Virus record (IMG/VR): IMGVR_UViG_3300025071_000006
Span: 1 to 64,000 of that record
Origin: a virus
Direction: 5' to 3' (one strand)
DNA length: 64,000 bases
How positions within the stretch are numbered: the stretch's first letter is position 1; each line of letters begins with the position of its first letter. The translations under genes and the position numbers were made by a program. Shown one piece after another: positions 1,484 to 20,471 of this stretch. The notes beneath the pieces were generated by a model. The model was not told the DNA's origin, searched no databases, and was given only the letters and a program-made list of their open reading frames with translations.

Positions 1484-1708
1484 ATGAGCTGGAAGAATAT
1501 ATTTAAAGATGATAACACATGGAATGAAAAGTCTATAGTAGGCTTTATCTCGTTCCTTATCATGGTGATTGTAATGATCGCTGATCTAGTGAGTGGTATT
1601 CTAGGCAAAGACCTGGTTATAAACGAGTTTGTTTATGATGCTTTTGTTCTACTCTCACTGGGCTGCTTTGGTATAGCCGGACTTGAAAAATTTGCAGGTA
1701 AGAAATAA
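1484..1708 (+). CDS. Two-transmembrane protein, holin candidate
   Basis: 74 residues with two hydrophobic segments at about 18-39 and 46-66, a short charged turn (GKDLVINE) and a basic C-terminal KK. Two-helix topology, length and the place directly before the endolysin gene are what a class II holin would show. No sequence family is recognised. It follows the CDGSH miniprotein by two bases. Confidence 0.6.
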   Translation: MSWKNIFKDDNTWNEKSIVGFISFLIMVIVMIADLVSGILGKDLVINEFVYDAFVLLSLGCFGIAGLEKFAGKK

Positions 1709-1728: not shown

Positions 1729-2340
1729 ATGAGTTGTTATTCAAGAGAACAAATAGAAGAAACAATGGCCTTCAAAGGCTATAAGTACTTCGATGGTGAT
1801 GGTGATTATGATGTAAATATTGTAGGAGTGAGAAACTCTGAAACAAAGAACAGAGTGACAAACGCCTTTGATGATTGCATGACACTCTCATACAAGGTGG
1901 ATGGAGAATGGCACTTCCACTGTTATAAGTGTACAACAGATCCTGGAACACATTGGATGGCCAACCTTCTTAATGAGAAAGGTGTAGCTATACTTAAGCC
2001 CGGACAATACAGAGGTGCTTACAAAATTAGAAAGCATCAAGGTAAATATGATGCTCTTTGTCAAAGAGGTCCTGTTAAAGTGTATAGAGATAAAAACAAG
2101 GATCATGTATACGATCTTACAGAAGAACATGTGCACGAAGGTGTATTTGGTATAAACATACACAGAGCCACAGCTAAAAAAGGTGGTAAATCATGGCGTG
2201 TAGATAAATGGTCAGCTGGTTGTCAGGTGATTGCTGCTAATGATGATTGGAAAGAATTTCTGGATATCTGCAAAAAGTCTGCAGCTATATGGGGAAATAA
2301 GTTTTCTTACACTCTAATAGAGTCAAATGATATAGTATGA
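1729..2340 (+). CDS. Endolysin with L,D-transpeptidase (YkuD)-like catalytic motif
   Basis: 203 residues, no signal peptide. The key motif is His145 (GINIHRA) followed 17 residues on by SAGC with Cys165 (WSAGCQVI). This resembles the YkuD pattern H-x14..17-[ST]HGC, with the His before Gly changed to Ala. Proteins with this layout (GVRN near the N-terminus, then PGTHWM and PGQYRGAYKIRKH) are common as putative peptidoglycan hydrolases in Bacteroidota phages. It lies between the holin candidate and the spanin pair, which supports a lysis role. Hydrolysis rather than transpeptidation is inferred from context. Confidence 0.7.
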   Translation: MSCYSREQIEETMAFKGYKYFDGDGDYDVNIVGVRNSETKNRVTNAFDDCMTLSYKVDGEWHFHCYKCTTDPGTHWMANLLNEKGVAILKPGQYRGAYKIRKHQGKYDALCQRGPVKVYRDKNKDHVYDLTEEHVHEGVFGINIHRATAKKGGKSWRVDKWSAGCQVIAANDDWKEFLDICKKSAAIWGNKFSYTLIESNDIV

Positions 2341-2669
2341 TAACAGTACTTAAATGGATAAAATATCAATGGTTTGGTGTTCTTATAATTATTGTTCTAT
2401 TATTTCTACAATATAAAGCTAGTCAAGAGATTGAGCTTTACAAATTAAAACTAAAAGAAATCGATAAACAGATAGAAGTTTACAAGATAAAGGATGAGCA
2501 ACTACAAATAAAGATAGATAGTTTAAGTTCTTTAGATGTAAAGGTGGTGGAGAAGATACGAACCATAAAAGAAAAAGAATATGTTCAACTTAAAGTGGTT
2601 GATTCTATGCCTATTAGTGAGCTTCAAGAGTTTTTCACAGATAGATACTCCGGTAGTAATTCTAACTGA
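2337..2669 (+). CDS. Inner-membrane spanin-like protein (Rz-like)
   Basis: 110 residues. An N-terminal membrane helix at about 12-26 (GVLIIIVLLFLQY) is followed by a long charged coiled coil (about 30-95) facing the periplasm. This is the i-spanin design: anchor plus periplasmic coiled coil. The start overlaps the endolysin stop (ATGA), and the 3' quarter overlaps the next gene in another frame by 89 bases, the genetic hallmark of Rz/Rz1 pairs. No sequence identity to lambda Rz is claimed. Confidence 0.65.
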   Translation: MITVLKWIKYQWFGVLIIIVLLFLQYKASQEIELYKLKLKEIDKQIEVYKIKDEQLQIKIDSLSSLDVKVVEKIRTIKEKEYVQLKVVDSMPISELQEFFTDRYSGSNSN

Positions 2670-3045
2670 GGACCAAGCTAGACTAGTAGTAAAGGATCTA
2701 ATACAATTTGACAATCTAAAACTTATAACTAAACAACTAGAAGATAGAATTTATCTTTTTGAACAAAAAGAAATAGATTTTATCTCACGACTTAAGACCA
2801 AAGATAATATCATTTCTTCTCAAGTAGAATATATATCAACTCAAGATGAGGTTATAAAGGCCAAAAAGAAGTTAAACTTCGGAGGCTATATAGGAGTTCA
2901 GACATATCAAGTAACCTTAAACGACCCTATGTTATTTGGGGAAGTTACATTGGGTTTAAATAAAATAGATATAGGAGCTAGAATCTTTGTACAACCTAAT
3001 AACCCTAGTGGTTTTGGTATTGTAGTGAGATATAAGATCTTCTAA
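2581..3045 (+). CDS. Secreted coiled-coil protein with C-terminal beta domain, outer-membrane spanin candidate
   Basis: 154 residues. Residues 1-19 are a signal peptide ending in SFSQ, with no lipobox Cys. Residues about 25-95 form an acidic/basic coiled coil. The last 60 residues contain four amphipathic strand candidates (GGYIGVQTYQVT, LFGEVTLGLN, IDIGARIFVQ, FGIVVRYKIF) and end in Phe. The gene begins inside the i-spanin gene. A coiled coil plus four strands per chain is also the plan of trimeric autotransporter anchors, so the protein may be held in the outer membrane by a trimeric barrel instead of a lipid. That model is inference. Confidence 0.6.
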   Translation: MFNLKWLILCLLVSFKSFSQIDTPVVILTEDQARLVVKDLIQFDNLKLITKQLEDRIYLFEQKEIDFISRLKTKDNIISSQVEYISTQDEVIKAKKKLNFGGYIGVQTYQVTLNDPMLFGEVTLGLNKIDIGARIFVQPNNPSGFGIVVRYKIF

Positions 3046-3134: not shown

Positions 3135-3536
3135 ATGGCAATACCAAATAAACAACAAGGATGGGGACCAGTTGAAAGACTTCTTTGGCAGATCTCTAAG
3201 CAGTTAGACCGTCTTATCAATGTAACAGGAAAGTGTAATCAATGCACTACAACAACAACTACAACAGCAGCTATTTCATTCCCTGCTGGACAGATTTCTG
3301 TAGCAAGTGATGTAGCAGATGCATGTGCATTAACGCTAGACACAGTCGTATATCTAGACTTAGCAAGTGGTCCTGCTATAGCCGTTGGTGACATTATATT
3401 TAATGATGCAGCAGGAACTAATCCATATGATGGAAGTGGTCCAGATTATCAGAGAGTAGAAAGTACTGATGGTCAAGACTGGAATGTACAAGTTGGAGTT
3501 GATGGACAAATTGACTCAGCAACATTGTGTGCATAA
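3135..3536 (+). CDS. Particle-display protein with poly-Thr linker and C-terminal beta domain
   Basis: 133 residues in three parts. An N-terminal helix (about 1-35, GPVERLLWQISKQLDRLINVTG) resembles the short attachment helices of structural genes further right. A Cys pair then leads into seven threonines and AA. A beta-rich module of about 85 residues begins SFPAGQ and ends in LCA. The module recurs at the end of the gene at 4604 and, more distantly, at the end of the gene at 55663. A surface or fibre-tip function is inferred. Its own promoter lies just upstream. Confidence 0.6.
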   Translation: MAIPNKQQGWGPVERLLWQISKQLDRLINVTGKCNQCTTTTTTTAAISFPAGQISVASDVADACALTLDTVVYLDLASGPAIAVGDIIFNDAAGTNPYDGSGPDYQRVESTDGQDWNVQVGVDGQIDSATLCA

Positions 3537-4603: not shown

Positions 4604-5047
4604 ATGGGAAGCATTAATAAAAGACCGTTAAACGCGTACGTCAGATATGATGGATCTGGACGTGTAGTAGCTGGTTCTCTTGTATTACGCAGGAAGATAC
4701 CAAAAGTTGGAAACTGGAAGGAATTACCACAAAATATAGCATATGAGTGCTGTTATCCTACCACTACCACAACATCAACAACAGCAATAGTATATCCTGC
4801 AGGTCAGGTATCGTCTGCTTCAGATGCAAGTAATGCATGTGCATTAACATTAGATACAGTCGTGTACTTAAAACTAGCTACAGCTAACGTAGTAGCAGTT
4901 GGAAGTATTGTATACAATGATGCAGCTGGATTAAATCCTTTCGATGGAAGTGGTGCAGCTCACAGAGTAGAAGCACCAGATGGTCAAGATTGGAATGCAG
5001 TGATTGGCGTAGATGGAGCTGTTACAGCAACGAATTTATGTGCATAA
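4604..5047 (+). CDS. Second display protein with Thr-rich linker, paralogue of the gene at 3135
   Basis: 147 residues. The N-terminal 55 residues (NKRPLNAYVRYDG) differ from the paralogue at 3135, but after the linker TTTTTSTTA the last 85 residues match it closely: shared runs include ACALTLDTVVYL and DGQDWN, and both end in LCA. The unrelated N-terminal parts and shared C-terminal module indicate domain exchange through the Thr linker. It probably attaches to a different place on the particle than its paralogue. Confidence 0.6.
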   Translation: MGSINKRPLNAYVRYDGSGRVVAGSLVLRRKIPKVGNWKELPQNIAYECCYPTTTTTSTTAIVYPAGQVSSASDASNACALTLDTVVYLKLATANVVAVGSIVYNDAAGLNPFDGSGAAHRVEAPDGQDWNAVIGVDGAVTATNLCA

Positions 5048-5703: not shown

Positions 5704-5889
5704 ATGGCTGAAAAAGCTAAAAAAGGAATGATTAAACGTAAGGATGGATCCTATAGCAAAAGAGGGCTATGGGATAACATCCGTGCTAATAAAGGTAGTG
5801 GTAGAAAGCCCACCAAAGCTATGTTAAAGCAAGAAAAAAAGATCAAAGCAAAAACAAAAAAGAAGAGGGGCACTAAAAAGAAGAAATAA
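5704..5889 (+). CDS. Very basic small protein 1 of 4
   Basis: 61 residues, rich in Lys/Arg with almost no acidic residues; the last 20 are nearly all Lys, Arg and Gly/Thr (KTKKKRGTKKKK). It has no hydrophobic core, so it is probably disordered until bound to nucleic acid or to the head interior. It starts seven bases after the previous stop and is followed by three more proteins of the same kind. Confidence 0.65.
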   Translation: MAEKAKKGMIKRKDGSYSKRGLWDNIRANKGSGRKPTKAMLKQEKKIKAKTKKKRGTKKKK

Positions 5890-5905
5890 CTTAATTCTAA
5901 TAAAT

Positions 5906-6151
5906 ATGCCACGTGTAAAAAAGAAAGCTGTTAAGAAATCCCAATATGGTTCTAACATGGCAGCTGGAGCTAAGAAGCTCAAGAAAGGTGGAAAATCCAA
6001 GAAGAACTGGATTCAAGGTGTAAACAAGTCCATCAAGAAAAGAGGAACCAAAGGTAAGTGTACTCCTATTACTAAGAAAGGATGTACCGGTAGGGCCAAA
6101 GCTCTTGCGAAGACATTTAAAAAAATGGCTAAGAAACGTAAGAAGAAATAG
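5906..6151 (+). CDS. Very basic small protein 2 of 4, KGKCTP/GCTGRAKAL type
   Basis: 81 residues, strongly basic. The C-terminal KGKCTPITKKGCTGRAKALAKTFKKM is a short two-Cys module that recurs in small basic proteins of phages and large DNA viruses. No enzymatic function is known to me for it. Binding or compaction of DNA is the natural inference from charge. It is part of the unit driven from 5376. Confidence 0.65.
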   Translation: MPRVKKKAVKKSQYGSNMAAGAKKLKKGGKSKKNWIQGVNKSIKKRGTKGKCTPITKKGCTGRAKALAKTFKKMAKKRKKK

Positions 6152-6153
6152 CA

Positions 6154-6450
6154 ATGCCTCGCAAAAAAGCAAAAGCAATTCGTAAAACCACTGGTAAAGG
6201 TGGCAATTATAGAAAGACTAAATCTGGTGCTGGGATGACTAAAAAAGGAGTCAAGGCATACAGGAAGGCTAACCCTGGCAGTAAACTTAAGACTGCAGTA
6301 ACAGGGAAAGTTAAAAAGGGGAGCAAATCAGCTAAAAGACGTAAGTCTTATTGTGCAAGAAGTTTGGGGCAGTTAAAACGCAGTAGTGCGAAAACTAAAA
6401 ATGATCCTAATTCTAGAATAAGACAAGCTAGAAGAAGGTGGAAATGTTAA
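6154..6450 (+). CDS. Very basic small protein 3 of 4, conserved YCARS / RRRWKC module
   Basis: 98 residues. It contains KAYRKANPGSKLKTAVTG, then KRRKSYCARSLGQ, and ends DPNSRIRQARRRWKC. This ordered set of motifs recurs in small basic proteins of marine and other phages as a domain of unknown function. The terminal Cys and internal YCARS could form a disulfide or metal site. Starts two bases after the previous stop. A virion DNA-packing role is inferred. Confidence 0.65.
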   Translation: MPRKKAKAIRKTTGKGGNYRKTKSGAGMTKKGVKAYRKANPGSKLKTAVTGKVKKGSKSAKRRKSYCARSLGQLKRSSAKTKNDPNSRIRQARRRWKC

Positions 6451-6474
6451 TTAACCTCAAATAATCTAAATACA

Positions 6475-6846
6475 ATGGGAACAAAAAAAGGAATGGTACG
6501 TAAAACAGCTCGTAACGCTTATGTAAAGAAAGCTAAGAGTGGAGTAAAAAAAGCAAGAAACTCTGCTCGTATGAATAGACTAGAAGAACTAGGTCGTATT
6601 GATGCTGAGAAGAAAAACAAAAACAGAATGGCTGAAAAGCGTAGAGTTGTAAGAGAACTAAATGCTAAGAAAGGTAAGAAAGTAGTTAAGAAAGCTGGTT
6701 ACGGTATGAGGAAAGCTAAATCTGGATTAAAGAAACCTAAGTCTTCACAAAAAGGGCTTAAAGCACTACCTAAAGCTGTACGTAATAAAATGAACTATGC
6801 TAAAAAAGGTGGATCTACACGTAAGTGTAAGTCAGGCTGTAAATAG
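6475..6846 (+). CDS. Very basic small protein 4 of 4
   Basis: 123 residues, histone H1-like in composition: Lys/Arg-Ala-Gly rich, with a more helical middle part (about 35-68, RLEELGRIDAEKKNKNRMAEK) and a Cys-containing tail (RKCKSGCK). Last gene of the rightward unit; its stop codon abuts the 3' end of the tRNA on the other strand. Confidence 0.65.
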   Translation: MGTKKGMVRKTARNAYVKKAKSGVKKARNSARMNRLEELGRIDAEKKNKNRMAEKRRVVRELNAKKGKKVVKKAGYGMRKAKSGLKKPKSSQKGLKALPKAVRNKMNYAKKGGSTRKCKSGCK

Positions 6847-16682: not shown

Positions 16683-18134
16683 CTACTCAATTCTACTAAC
16701 TCTCTGATTTATAGCTGCTTTCATTTTACTAAGACTAGCAACAATATCTTCGATTTCTGTATAAGTCATATGAGGTATATTAAACTCATGCTTGTTAATC
16801 TCAGCAGTAAAGCCTTCTTTAGCCTTGTTTTCTAGTTCTTCAAGCTCTCTTATAGCATAATCCTCATCCAGTTCTAAAGTGTTAAATCTCAAGTCATGCA
16901 AGATAGTTGTAGCTTCTTCTCTAGGAACAGTCATAATTGGAAGATACTCATAGCATCTACCTTTATGTTCACCAATACCTACAACTTTCATAGGATTAAT
17001 AAGTACTAGAACAGACTGATCACCACAACCTACATAATGTATTTGATCTGCAGTAAAGTGTAACCCTGCTGCCATACAGTCTTGTGTAGACCAGTTGCAA
17101 TCTTCTTTAGGCATACTAACTGGTTTACCAACACGTATATCAAACGTCTTAGTCCAATCATCAGTAAATCTGTTTTCACTTCTGTTTGGTAAGTCAAGAT
17201 ATATGTCTTTAAGATTACCTATACGCTCACCATATTCAATAGGAACTTCAAAGCTGTTTTCATATGGTTCGCATTCTATGTAACAGTCTTCATAATCATC
17301 CCACTCTTCTTCAATCAACTCTGTTCTAGTTTCGTACAGACCTTTCTCATGAACAATCTTGTACTCACCGTTGTCTAGAAATACAGTATACTTCTTAGGC
17401 TTCTTACCCCATACAGCTTTTACTTTGTTGTATGTGTTAGATATAAAGTGTACAAGCTCTGGGCTACCGTGTAACGTTACTACATTACGTAGAGCTACAA
17501 AGAATCCTTGCTTAGTAATCCTAAAGCTGTTCTTCTGTAAGAACATGTATAGCTCATTAGCTACCTCAGCTCTTGGATTTAAACAACACCACATAAAGAA
17601 GTTCTTTAGAGATTGATACTCGTCATCTTTATCACAAAGCTCCTGTATCGATGTTGGTCCATTCCAAGAATTAGTCTTAATCTTATAAACTACTTCAATG
17701 AACTTCTCTACTAGTAAACTAGGCATTGTTCTATTGGTCCCTACTAAATAACAATTGTTTCCATCTGTTTTAAAATCATCAAGTTCCACAAGTGCATCAA
17801 TACCTATTTGTAAAGCCTTGGCTTTCTCAATATCTCTACGCTCTTGAAGTCGTTGATCCATAACTTCTTGGTTCATCATAAGACTTTCTAATTGTTGCTC
17901 AGTTTTAGCATTGTTTACTGCATGAAATGTATCTTCATCAGCATCTGTCTTGGTAAAAATTCTACCAGTACTTGTCACTACAGTCAATTGGTCATTAACC
18001 AATTTGATCTGCTTAATAATAACAGAAGAAGAATTGTCTTCTTCTGTCATACTGTCTAGCTTGTTAGCTATAACTCTGTCGATAGAATTCTCTACCCTTC
18101 CCTTGAACCAGTCAAGAGATAAAAATTTACTCAT
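16683..18134 (-). CDS. rIIB-like protein
   Basis: 483 residues, soluble, following the rIIA-like gene as in T4. An N-terminal segment IIKQIKLVNDQLTVVTSTG, a long middle helical part with QGFFVALRNVVTLHG resembling the conserved centre of rIIB proteins, and repeated YGERIGN/DCYIECEPYE segments are visible. It is longer than T4 rIIB (about 310 residues). In T4 the rII pair prevents abortive infection by lambda prophage; a similar anti-exclusion role here is inference. Confidence 0.6.
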   Translation of the reverse strand: MSKFLSLDWFKGRVENSIDRVIANKLDSMTEEDNSSSVIIKQIKLVNDQLTVVTSTGRIFTKTDADEDTFHAVNNAKTEQQLESLMMNQEVMDQRLQERRDIEKAKALQIGIDALVELDDFKTDGNNCYLVGTNRTMPSLLVEKFIEVVYKIKTNSWNGPTSIQELCDKDDEYQSLKNFFMWCCLNPRAEVANELYMFLQKNSFRITKQGFFVALRNVVTLHGSPELVHFISNTYNKVKAVWGKKPKKYTVFLDNGEYKIVHEKGLYETRTELIEEEWDDYEDCYIECEPYENSFEVPIEYGERIGNLKDIYLDLPNRSENRFTDDWTKTFDIRVGKPVSMPKEDCNWSTQDCMAAGLHFTADQIHYVGCGDQSVLVLINPMKVVGIGEHKGRCYEYLPIMTVPREEATTILHDLRFNTLELDEDYAIRELEELENKAKEGFTAEINKHEFNIPHMTYTEIEDIVASLSKMKAAINQRVSRIE

Positions 18135-18152
18135 AGTTTCTGTTTTTAATTA

Positions 18153-20471
18153 TTAATTATTGATTTCTGTTTCGATTATATTATTTTCTGTCATATAGTG
18201 CTTAGAATTTACTTTACACTTGTAATACTTAAGCATGTCTATAACTATTCTTAATTGAATGTTATTGTCTTGAGTATTACTATGAACCTGTAGTCTTTGC
18301 ATCAATACCAATATCCATGGAACTTTTTCTGTTACAAACTTTTCTATTTGTAGAAACTCTGGATACATCTTCATATCATAAAGATTATACTTATCAGCAA
18401 CTTCAAACATAGCTTTGTACATAGCTTCTTCACGGCCATATCCATTATGATTTCTATAGTATTTATTTCTATAGTTAATTAAATCATTTAATTGATTTGC
18501 TAAATCAGTAGACGCATTTTTGATTATACCATCTCGATGATTAAATATTGCTTCATATTGCTTTATAAAGGTATGAACCTTGGCTGATGTTACCATACGC
18601 TTAAATGGTTTTGTTTTTCCTTTCATAAATTCTTCTCTTGATATTAAGTTATGTATCTGCAGTGCTTCAACTATCTTTAACTCTCTAGGAGACAAAGATA
18701 TTATTTTAACTCTGGTATGATCTACGTGTCTATAAATAGGATCTAATAGTATTTGATTCTCATGAGTATCATATATATAAAACAAACCACTCTTTACAAG
18801 TTTCTGTAGATCATATATCTTAGATTCAAACTTACAGTTTCTACCATCATTATACCTAAGAAGATCAATAGCTTCTTTACCAACTATCTCACCCTTAACT
18901 TTTCTACGTCCTGTTCCACCAACCTTATTAGCTTTCTTCTGAAGTTTCTTTTGATTTCTATCGTCTAGAAAAGGCTGAGGCACTGTCATAGCATCTAAGT
19001 CTATAAAATTCTTCATTACCAATTCTTCTACTGTTTTCAAATCTTCTATTCTATCAAGATGTTCTGTAGCAGGATGTGTACTAAGATTAAGCAATACTTT
19101 GTAAGATGTTATAGTTGAACCAAGTGCAACAGTTGGATCGAATCCATCAGGTCTATCTTGTATTTTCACTAAGAAACAATCTTCGCTATGGATTGATCTT
19201 AAATACTCTTTCATTATACCACCCACTTGATTCTCATAGTAATAAACTACAGGTATGTTACCATTATAACCTGCACCTACTAAATCTGCTACTGACCAAT
19301 GACTATTATAAGTATTCTGAGCGTTGTATAACTTACTGTTCTTCATACTGAACTTACATGTTACTCTTTCTAACCATTGAGCTTTAATTTTCCACAGCTC
19401 AGAGAATCCTGTAACCTTAAGTTTAGATAATGTTGGCTCTTCTACTTTAATTGAAGCATGATTTATAAGCTTTCTAATATCTAGGGTTTTTCCTAAATGT
19501 TTTACAGCTCTCTCATTATTATTAAAGTACTTATAAAGAGCTAATATGTTATCTCCTGCTTCTATCTCATCATTGTATTTTTGTACAAAATGATCTGCTA
19601 CTAGACTTATATTGTGCAAGATAATGTTCTTAGCTTCAGTTGTGTATCTTAGAGCTTCTCTGTTTGGTGTTGGAAATAATCCATCTTTTAGACTAAATCT
19701 AATACCTATAGGTATCCTAATTCTTTCTATACCAATCTTAGCAAAGTCAAGAGGATAATAAACATCGTCTAAACAAACATGCATATCATCTTGTTCACAC
19801 ATTTCTGAAAATTGATAACTATCACCTCTATGTATAGTGAAATCATTACTAATTCCTTCTACATCAAAATACACATCTTGAAAATAACATAGCTGTTCTT
19901 TAATCTTACGTTTGAAATCATGTTGATCATAGGATTTAATAGGAATAATAATCTTAACACCATCTCTTTCGGTGGTGGGTTCACTATATATCAAATCAAT
20001 AGTATTTACGTCTTCTCCTTCGTACATCATGTACTTACGTTCCATTCCATACTTTCTGGCTATAAAGTAAAAGCTAGAACAGTAAGCTAATGGGGCCTTA
20101 AATCCTAACCCCATCATACCTAACTCATTCTCACTCTCACGTTTAGTAGACTTACCGTATTTACTGATGATGTTTTCTACATCTCTGTGATTAAGACCTA
20201 TACCAAAGTCTTCAACGGTAAATTCCCAGGAACTACTCTCACCTACACGTAGAGAAACTACTATAGGGTCTGTAACTCCTGCTCTTCTGTGGCTGTCTAG
20301 TGCATTACTTGCACACTCACGAATAGCAGAACCTATCTCATCAGAATATAAATTCTTACTCAACATCTGCATTAAGATTTGAGCTGAGTCCATGTCTAAT
20401 GACATCTTAGTACTGCTTTGAGTTACTCCGGTCTGGAGAACTCTGGCTTCTGTTTGTTTTTGAACTATCAT
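18153..20471 (-). CDS. rIIA-like GHKL ATPase
   Basis: 772 residues. The N-terminal GHKL (HATPase) domain is clear: N-box AIRECASNALDS (Glu52, Asn56), G1 box DFGIGL (Asp88), G2 box GMMGLGFKAPL (118-128). Length and the rIIB-like neighbour match T4 rIIA, which also carries a GHKL domain. The C-terminal 500 residues show no other recognisable domain. It probably acts at the membrane or on host exclusion systems. Also similar in layout to MORC/Hsp90-type folds, but the context favours rIIA. Confidence 0.8.
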   Translation of the reverse strand: MIVQKQTEARVLQTGVTQSSTKMSLDMDSAQILMQMLSKNLYSDEIGSAIRECASNALDSHRRAGVTDPIVVSLRVGESSSWEFTVEDFGIGLNHRDVENIISKYGKSTKRESENELGMMGLGFKAPLAYCSSFYFIARKYGMERKYMMYEGEDVNTIDLIYSEPTTERDGVKIIIPIKSYDQHDFKRKIKEQLCYFQDVYFDVEGISNDFTIHRGDSYQFSEMCEQDDMHVCLDDVYYPLDFAKIGIERIRIPIGIRFSLKDGLFPTPNREALRYTTEAKNIILHNISLVADHFVQKYNDEIEAGDNILALYKYFNNNERAVKHLGKTLDIRKLINHASIKVEEPTLSKLKVTGFSELWKIKAQWLERVTCKFSMKNSKLYNAQNTYNSHWSVADLVGAGYNGNIPVVYYYENQVGGIMKEYLRSIHSEDCFLVKIQDRPDGFDPTVALGSTITSYKVLLNLSTHPATEHLDRIEDLKTVEELVMKNFIDLDAMTVPQPFLDDRNQKKLQKKANKVGGTGRRKVKGEIVGKEAIDLLRYNDGRNCKFESKIYDLQKLVKSGLFYIYDTHENQILLDPIYRHVDHTRVKIISLSPRELKIVEALQIHNLISREEFMKGKTKPFKRMVTSAKVHTFIKQYEAIFNHRDGIIKNASTDLANQLNDLINYRNKYYRNHNGYGREEAMYKAMFEVADKYNLYDMKMYPEFLQIEKFVTEKVPWILVLMQRLQVHSNTQDNNIQLRIVIDMLKYYKCKVNSKHYMTENNIIETEINN

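Follow-up and report, generated by a model that had tools for sequence, protein, structure and literature searches.

How might the outer partner of a spanin-like pair be held in the outer membrane if it carries no lipid? The question is raised by two overlapping genes, P0001 and P0002, near the start of the window, i.e., the whole 64,000-nucleotide stretch analyzed here, which is the first 64 kb of the IMG/VR virus record IMGVR_UViG_3300025071_000006 (115,478 bases). An earlier note on this DNA had read the pair as spanin-like, placed it in a Bacteroidota phage and suggested that a trimeric barrel takes the place of the lipid. The terminase and the portal of the window were both matched by PHROG models. 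The terminase was closest mostly to those of crAss-like phages, e.g., Cellulophaga phi17:2 and several Crassvirales; the exception to this pattern was the single nearest one (39%), from a phage recorded from Leptolyngbya. The likeness to crAss-like phages and the Q-rule signal peptides described below support the origin from a Bacteroidota phage.

The lysis region consists of genes for a holin-like protein, an endolysin, P0001, and P0002, in this order and all on the + strand. The putative holin (1484..1708), upstream of the endolysin, is a small membrane protein of 74 aa with two hydrophobic segments; it was likened by eye to immuto35A_78 of Flavobacterium phage immuto, and family searches with it gave no significant match. 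The L,D-transpeptidase-like endolysin (1729..2340) matched phrog_33083 (endolysin, E 1e-18) and phrog_3000 (E 7e-36), with a weak match to YkuD (E 0.055), and is 45-50% identical to the gene on the 5' side of such an overlapping pair in a number of crAss-like gut phages. Just upstream of the lysis genes, positions 784-1182 encode a thioredoxin-like protein (Thioredoxin_2, E 8e-5) that is exported with its own Q-rule signal peptide (SVVA/Q, with the slash marking cleavage), and an open reading frame at positions 1-491, truncated by the contig start, has the C-terminus FGINYTFK, like that of an outer-membrane barrel.

P0001 (2337..2669, + strand) is a protein of 110 aa with the features of an i-spanin, namely an N-terminal transmembrane anchor followed by a periplasmic coiled coil. 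The transmembrane segment covers residues 12-27 (2370..2417), the hydrophobic stretch has a KD value of 2.19 across 17 residues, and heptad periodicity was found after the anchor (p = 0.006), which confirms the membrane anchor plus coiled coil noticed earlier. The conserved C-terminal segment reads IKEKEYVQ...SELQxFFTDRY. The Rz-like spanin model phrog_739 gave E 0.12 with P0001 and E 9e-4 with its relative at L085:2206-2571, the latter being a weak match in which coiled-coil bias is possible.

P0002 (2581..3045, + strand; 154 aa) starts within P0001 in the +1 frame and overlaps it by 89 nt, so that the overlapping arrangement was confirmed as described, and the two genes lie directly 3' of the endolysin gene, as spanin genes do in a lysis cassette. 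Residues 1-19 (2581..2637) form a signal peptide ending in SFS/Q, with cleavage before Gln20. In Bacteroidota, substrates of signal peptidase I as a rule have Gln directly after the cleavage site (PMC10653852). No Cys is present at the lipobox position, the sole Cys, C10, being placed midway along the hydrophobic core, which bears out the claim of a signal peptide without a lipobox. Sequence kinship of P0002 was sought in Pfam, PHROGs, PDB chains, and YadA anchors and none was found, nor was there a significant sequence match to any spanin family.

Relatives were gathered from IMG/VR by single-protein searches and then by alignments, and many of the contigs carried both genes. The resulting P0002 family set comprises 60 distinct proteins, including the one from the window. 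The S/Q site is present in all 60, and each has an overlapping 5' frame in the same frame relation (overlap of 71-104 bases), which encodes a P0001-like protein with a hydrophobic transmembrane anchor in 59/60. Between close relatives, dN/dS was ~0.1 in the non-overlapping parts of both genes. No plausible lipobox was found in P0002 or in 57/60 relatives; the other three are potential lipoproteins, with LVGC, LVGC, and LMSC at a possible position, and count against a non-lipid design. The LIAC at Cys10 in some relatives was rejected as a lipobox, as it sits in the middle of the short hydrophobic core. In the relatives examined, the gene directly 5' of the pair is often a wall hydrolase, of the Amidase_2, Peptidase_M15_3, Peptidase_M15_4, or GH19 type. 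Because the pair keeps its place while the preceding wall enzyme changes, it appears to be part of lysis, and this role is well supported by the gene neighborhoods; the proposal of an Rz/Rz1-style setting is supported by the endolysin on the 5' side and the overlapping P0001-like frames throughout the family.

P0002 was modeled as a single chain with AlphaFold2 using 30 natural sequences as input. The model (mean pLDDT 78.8) has a helix of 65 residues (30-94; 2668..2862), with block pLDDT mostly 79-95, followed by exactly four strands (98-107, 117-126, 129-138, and 141-151) in a C-terminal domain of residues 98-154 (2872..3042); its low pTM (0.33) counts against it. The coiled coil claimed for this protein was thus borne out as a long helix, with marginal heptad periodicity (p = 0.045). 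The strands are ~10 residues each. Strands 2 and 3 are joined by the tight turn NK, and the loops 1-2 and 3-4 are longer, so we infer that both ends of the domain are on the periplasmic side.

The strands are amphipathic in the manner of membrane strands. Hydrophobic and polar columns alternate more than shuffled columns (p <= 0.002 in a whole-domain shuffle with both definitions of strand 4), and over the 60 sequences the predicted outward face is 87% aliphatic or aromatic with 0/1200 charged cells, compared with 249/1200 on the inward face. Y151, F154, and G132 are kept in 60/60 sequences and G105 in 59/60. The conserved inward positions 99, 103, 119, 134, 138, and 150 include large residues, a hint that the lumen is plugged. 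P0002 ends in Phe, as do 60/60 relatives, and the four amphipathic strands ending in Phe thus stand as first described; however, this Phe is offset by one residue from the register of the outward-facing Y151 and I153 and so differs from the textbook C-terminal signature.

The fold was compared with known structures using Foldseek. Among 350,542 PDB chains, ranks 1-4 were taken by the Hia anchors 2gr7, 3emo, and 2gr8 and the AtaA anchor 9vnj (third), each with probability 1.00 and with E-values of 0.026-0.087, which are individually not significant; 2gr8 could be placed onto the model at 2.7 A over 56 columns. In BFVD, the library of predicted viral structures, the named leaders were phage proteins with YadA-like anchor domains (E 0.001-0.007). 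As the E-values are modest, the support for the fold comes from the ranking and from the agreement of the two libraries. The P0002 sequence had no Pfam profile match to PF03895 (YadA_anchor), and hhalign of the P0002 family against phage YadA anchors gave a probability of 0.4%. The comparison with YadA anchor domains thus upheld one part of the earlier idea, the helix and four-strand anchor fold of a single chain, and did not uphold membership of the YadA_anchor family by sequence; what the model supports is a trimeric-autotransporter-like anchor in fold and design. Such anchors have four strands per chain, which combine into a 12-strand trimer (PMC7247746). By the model, the apparent anchor of P0002 in the outer membrane is a small beta-barrel shared between chains, in place of a lipid tail.

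A larger sister class with a homologous N-terminal half ends differently. It is found, for example, in Flavobacterium phage immuto (MW353176; L023:4938-5601), as an overlapping pair that follows the endolysin gene. The profile of this helical class is matched by at least 390 IMG/VR loci, some of which may be members of the strand class; 80 loci were sampled (L103-L181 among the labels), and 36 of them were examined whole. The N-terminal half is homologous to that of P0002 (hhalign 99.3%), whereas the C-terminus consists of a Lys/Arg-rich stretch and about 17 hydrophobic residues. AlphaFold2 gave a single continuous helix, with which Foldseek returned zero matches, serving only as a negative control. 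No plausible lipobox was found in the members examined. In a tree of the shared part (67 columns only), one branch splits the two classes with support of 95/91; since a single branch divides them, the anchor appears, on this short tree, to have been exchanged once. No relative of either the strand or the helical class was found in the bacterial genomes searched.

Pairs of the helical kind also occur in the crAss-like gut phages crAss002, Rudgehvirus, cr271_1, cr107_1, and cr8_1 (L184, L186, L187, L190, and L191), where they follow an L,D-transpeptidase-like endolysin, with the terminase on the other side in 4/5. Bacteroides hosts are known for crAss002 and Rudgehvirus. The outer partners of cr271_1 and cr8_1 have both a possible lipobox (LLSC) and a C-terminal helix, which is the make-up of a unimolecular spanin, yet each has a partner protein.

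We consider it probable that the pair is a spanin-like bridge in which P0001 sits in the inner membrane and P0002 in the outer membrane by means of its four-strand anchor, the membranes being joined once the wall has been cut. The pair would probably break the host outer membrane at the end of infection. In the mechanism proposed, P0001 would be inserted in the inner membrane and extend its coiled coil into the periplasm, while P0002 would be exported, lose its signal peptide before Gln20 and insert in the outer membrane through the C-terminal domain. Most likely, three chains would form one 12-strand barrel from which the 65-residue coiled coils hang into the periplasm. The two proteins would meet through the N-terminal part of P0002, which both anchor classes conserve, and the conserved C-terminal segment of P0001, and this contact would bridge the periplasm through the wall. 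Removal of the wall by the endolysin would then let the complex collapse and bring the two membranes together. The helical sister anchor counts against the bridge, because after cleavage such a protein would be expected as a type I protein of the inner membrane, which would fail to reach across to the outer one, unless its weakly hydrophobic C-terminus goes on to the outer membrane. The mean KD of the C-terminal helix is 1.76, compared with 2.46 for the inner-membrane anchor of the partner, and this weaker hydrophobicity might let the helix pass the Sec machinery.

The anchor evidence (four strands, Hia/AtaA ranks, uncharged outward face) is identical for a pore or disruptor, in which a trimer or larger ring of P0002 opens or weakens the outer membrane, triggered or tethered by P0001, and the membranes do not fuse. 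Larger rings with four strands per chain do exist, as in CsgG. A bridge agrees better with the long coiled coil of each partner and with their universal pairing, and the large conserved inward residues suggest a lumen that is plugged, so that we regard a pore as unlikely.

The membrane placement of P0002 is a prediction, and its hydrophobic face could instead form the core of a protein; the four-strand domain would then be a soluble periplasmic oligomerization or wall-binding domain and P0002 a soluble partner of P0001. That the homologous helical class ends in another C-terminus is consistent with this. However, a domain of 57 residues is small for a soluble two-layer sheet that is not oligomeric, the outward face is uncharged over 60 sequences, and the best fold matches are membrane anchors, which makes a soluble domain quite unlikely. 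It is also improbable that the pair is a holin/antiholin regulator or another envelope factor merely placed in the lysis cassette: the lysis function of all family members is predicted, which leaves room for such a factor, but the Rz/Rz1-type overlap, the N-terminal anchor with coiled coil, and the fixed position behind unrelated wall hydrolases speak against it.

The direction of the coiled coil bears on the remaining alternative. In anchors of the YadA type, the pore holds the helix that leads into strand 1, and this helix has many small residues. In the P0002 family, the 28 residues ahead of strand 1 are 12% Ala/Gly/Ser and 35% charged, compared with 39% and 17%, respectively, for the corresponding stretch in phage YadA anchors, and in P0002 the helix and strand 1 are only about three residues apart. 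Because there is no small-residue pore segment, a periplasmic coiled coil with a TolC-like direction is more likely, judging from composition, than export through the pore, and the periplasmic placement fits the bridge, which needs it for the contact with P0001. The conserved inward glycines 105 and 132 could favor the opposite, threaded arrangement. In TolC, the helices are outside the pore in the periplasm, and four strands per chain form a 12-strand trimer (PMC8324772). The YadA-like anchoring first suggested is thus modified, as the coiled coil probably does not pass through the pore and TolC is the better topological comparison. That P0002 is a small trimeric autotransporter with its coiled coil threaded to the surface, as an adhesin or superinfection-exclusion factor, is highly improbable, for although the Hia/AtaA fold likeness, the two conserved glycines, and the location of YadA-anchor proteins of some phages away from lysis genes favor it, P0002 always overlaps a P0001-like gene beside a wall hydrolase, the helix ahead of its strands carries charges and is without the small residues found in the pore helices of YadA anchors, and the same secreted part is also found with a helical anchor. 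YadA-anchor proteins of other phages were considered as lysis proteins but lend no support: in phiEco32, the gene is a long way from those for lysis, and in SKML-39, none of the genes near it is annotated for lysis.

As a spanin-like bridge, the pair resembles lambda Rz/Rz1 (phrog_739; PMC6139136) in its overlapping genes behind the endolysin, the inner coiled-coil partner, and the exported outer partner. It differs in that P0002 is not a lipoprotein, is anchored at the C-terminus and not the N-terminus, combines a mostly helical make-up with an anchor of four strands and is free of cysteine after cleavage. Periplasmic cysteines are ubiquitous among two-component spanins (PMC6139136), and mature P0001 and mature P0002 are both Cys-free, which counts against the spanin reading; a trimeric barrel may, at a guess, make a disulfide unnecessary. 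The unimolecular spanin T1 gp11 is likewise a lysis gene product, and its C-terminal membrane segment resembles the helical sister class, but it is one protein with an N-terminal lipid, whereas the window has two proteins and a beta anchor; P0002 has neither a lipobox nor a C-terminal transmembrane segment and pairs with P0001. With the Hia and AtaA anchors (PF03895), P0002 shares a domain of 57 vs 60 positions in which a helix precedes four amphipathic strands, an aromatic C-terminal residue, and the one-chain fold, but no sequence kinship, no small-residue pore helix, and no extracellular passenger. The likeness to TolC is proposed from topology (four strands per chain, 12-strand trimer, periplasmic helices), and P0002 is far smaller, with contiguous strands and one helix per chain. 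The flavobacterial helical class shares the position of the overlapping pair after the endolysin, the export of the coiled coil, a homologous N-terminal half, and the lack of a plausible lipobox; there and in the gut-phage pairs, the basic stretch and ~17 hydrophobic residues replace the four strands.

About 13% of the genomes analyzed by Kongari 2018 (PMC6139136) were without a spanin, including those of Croceibacter phages P2559S/Y and Bacteroides phage B124-14, and an outer-membrane protein as o-spanin was named there as a mere possibility. The new spanin design claimed at the outset had thus already been suggested in principle, and no described example of a beta-anchored or outer-membrane-protein o-spanin was found in the literature searched, which covers part of the journals. 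In P2559S (JQ867099, L096:27300-28065), an N-terminally anchored coiled-coil protein is encoded behind an amidase. From an unannotated start that overlaps this gene, gene 30 would encode a Q-rule signal peptide, which is cut off in the gene as annotated, a coiled coil, and amphipathic strands, counted by reading the sequence, that end in ...GGRLSFAIW. P2559S looks like it shares the architecture of the P0002 pair, while a search with the gene 30 protein found only P2559S itself and no detectable kinship to the P0002 family. B124-14 was rejected as evidence for the barrel design, as it has an N-terminally membrane-anchored protein behind an M15 peptidase and a lipoprotein-like gene ~1 kb further on, and may carry a conventional separated spanin pair.

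More broadly, we propose tentatively that many Bacteroidota phages, crAss-like phages included, have two-component spanins with a C-terminally held non-lipoprotein outer partner, anchored by a helix in one clade or a trimeric 12-strand barrel in another, the anchors being interchangeable within one family. If true, this would help account for the spanin-less label that several such phages receive in surveys based on the lipobox. The lipobox is the starting point of spanin searches, and the P0002 family is a concrete conserved o-spanin candidate in which the anchor appears exchangeable; a rigid barrel replacing the lipid in the target membrane would constrain membrane-fusion models of spanin action. 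For annotation, the overlap, the Q-rule signal peptide, and the terminal strands or helix offer a route to the lysis genes of crAss-like phages.

Elsewhere in the window, adjoining rIIA-like and rIIB-like genes are located at 16683-20471 (- strand), with matches to PHROG lysis inhibitors (E 8e-53 and 1e-13, respectively), and these neighbors occur here in a crAss-like phage. The proteins encoded at 3135-3536 and 4604-5047 resemble each other, with a run of Thr and a common C-terminal half, and their genes flank that of a 339-aa phrog_4417 protein. Positions 5704-6846 encode four small proteins in succession, all of which are very rich in Lys/Arg.
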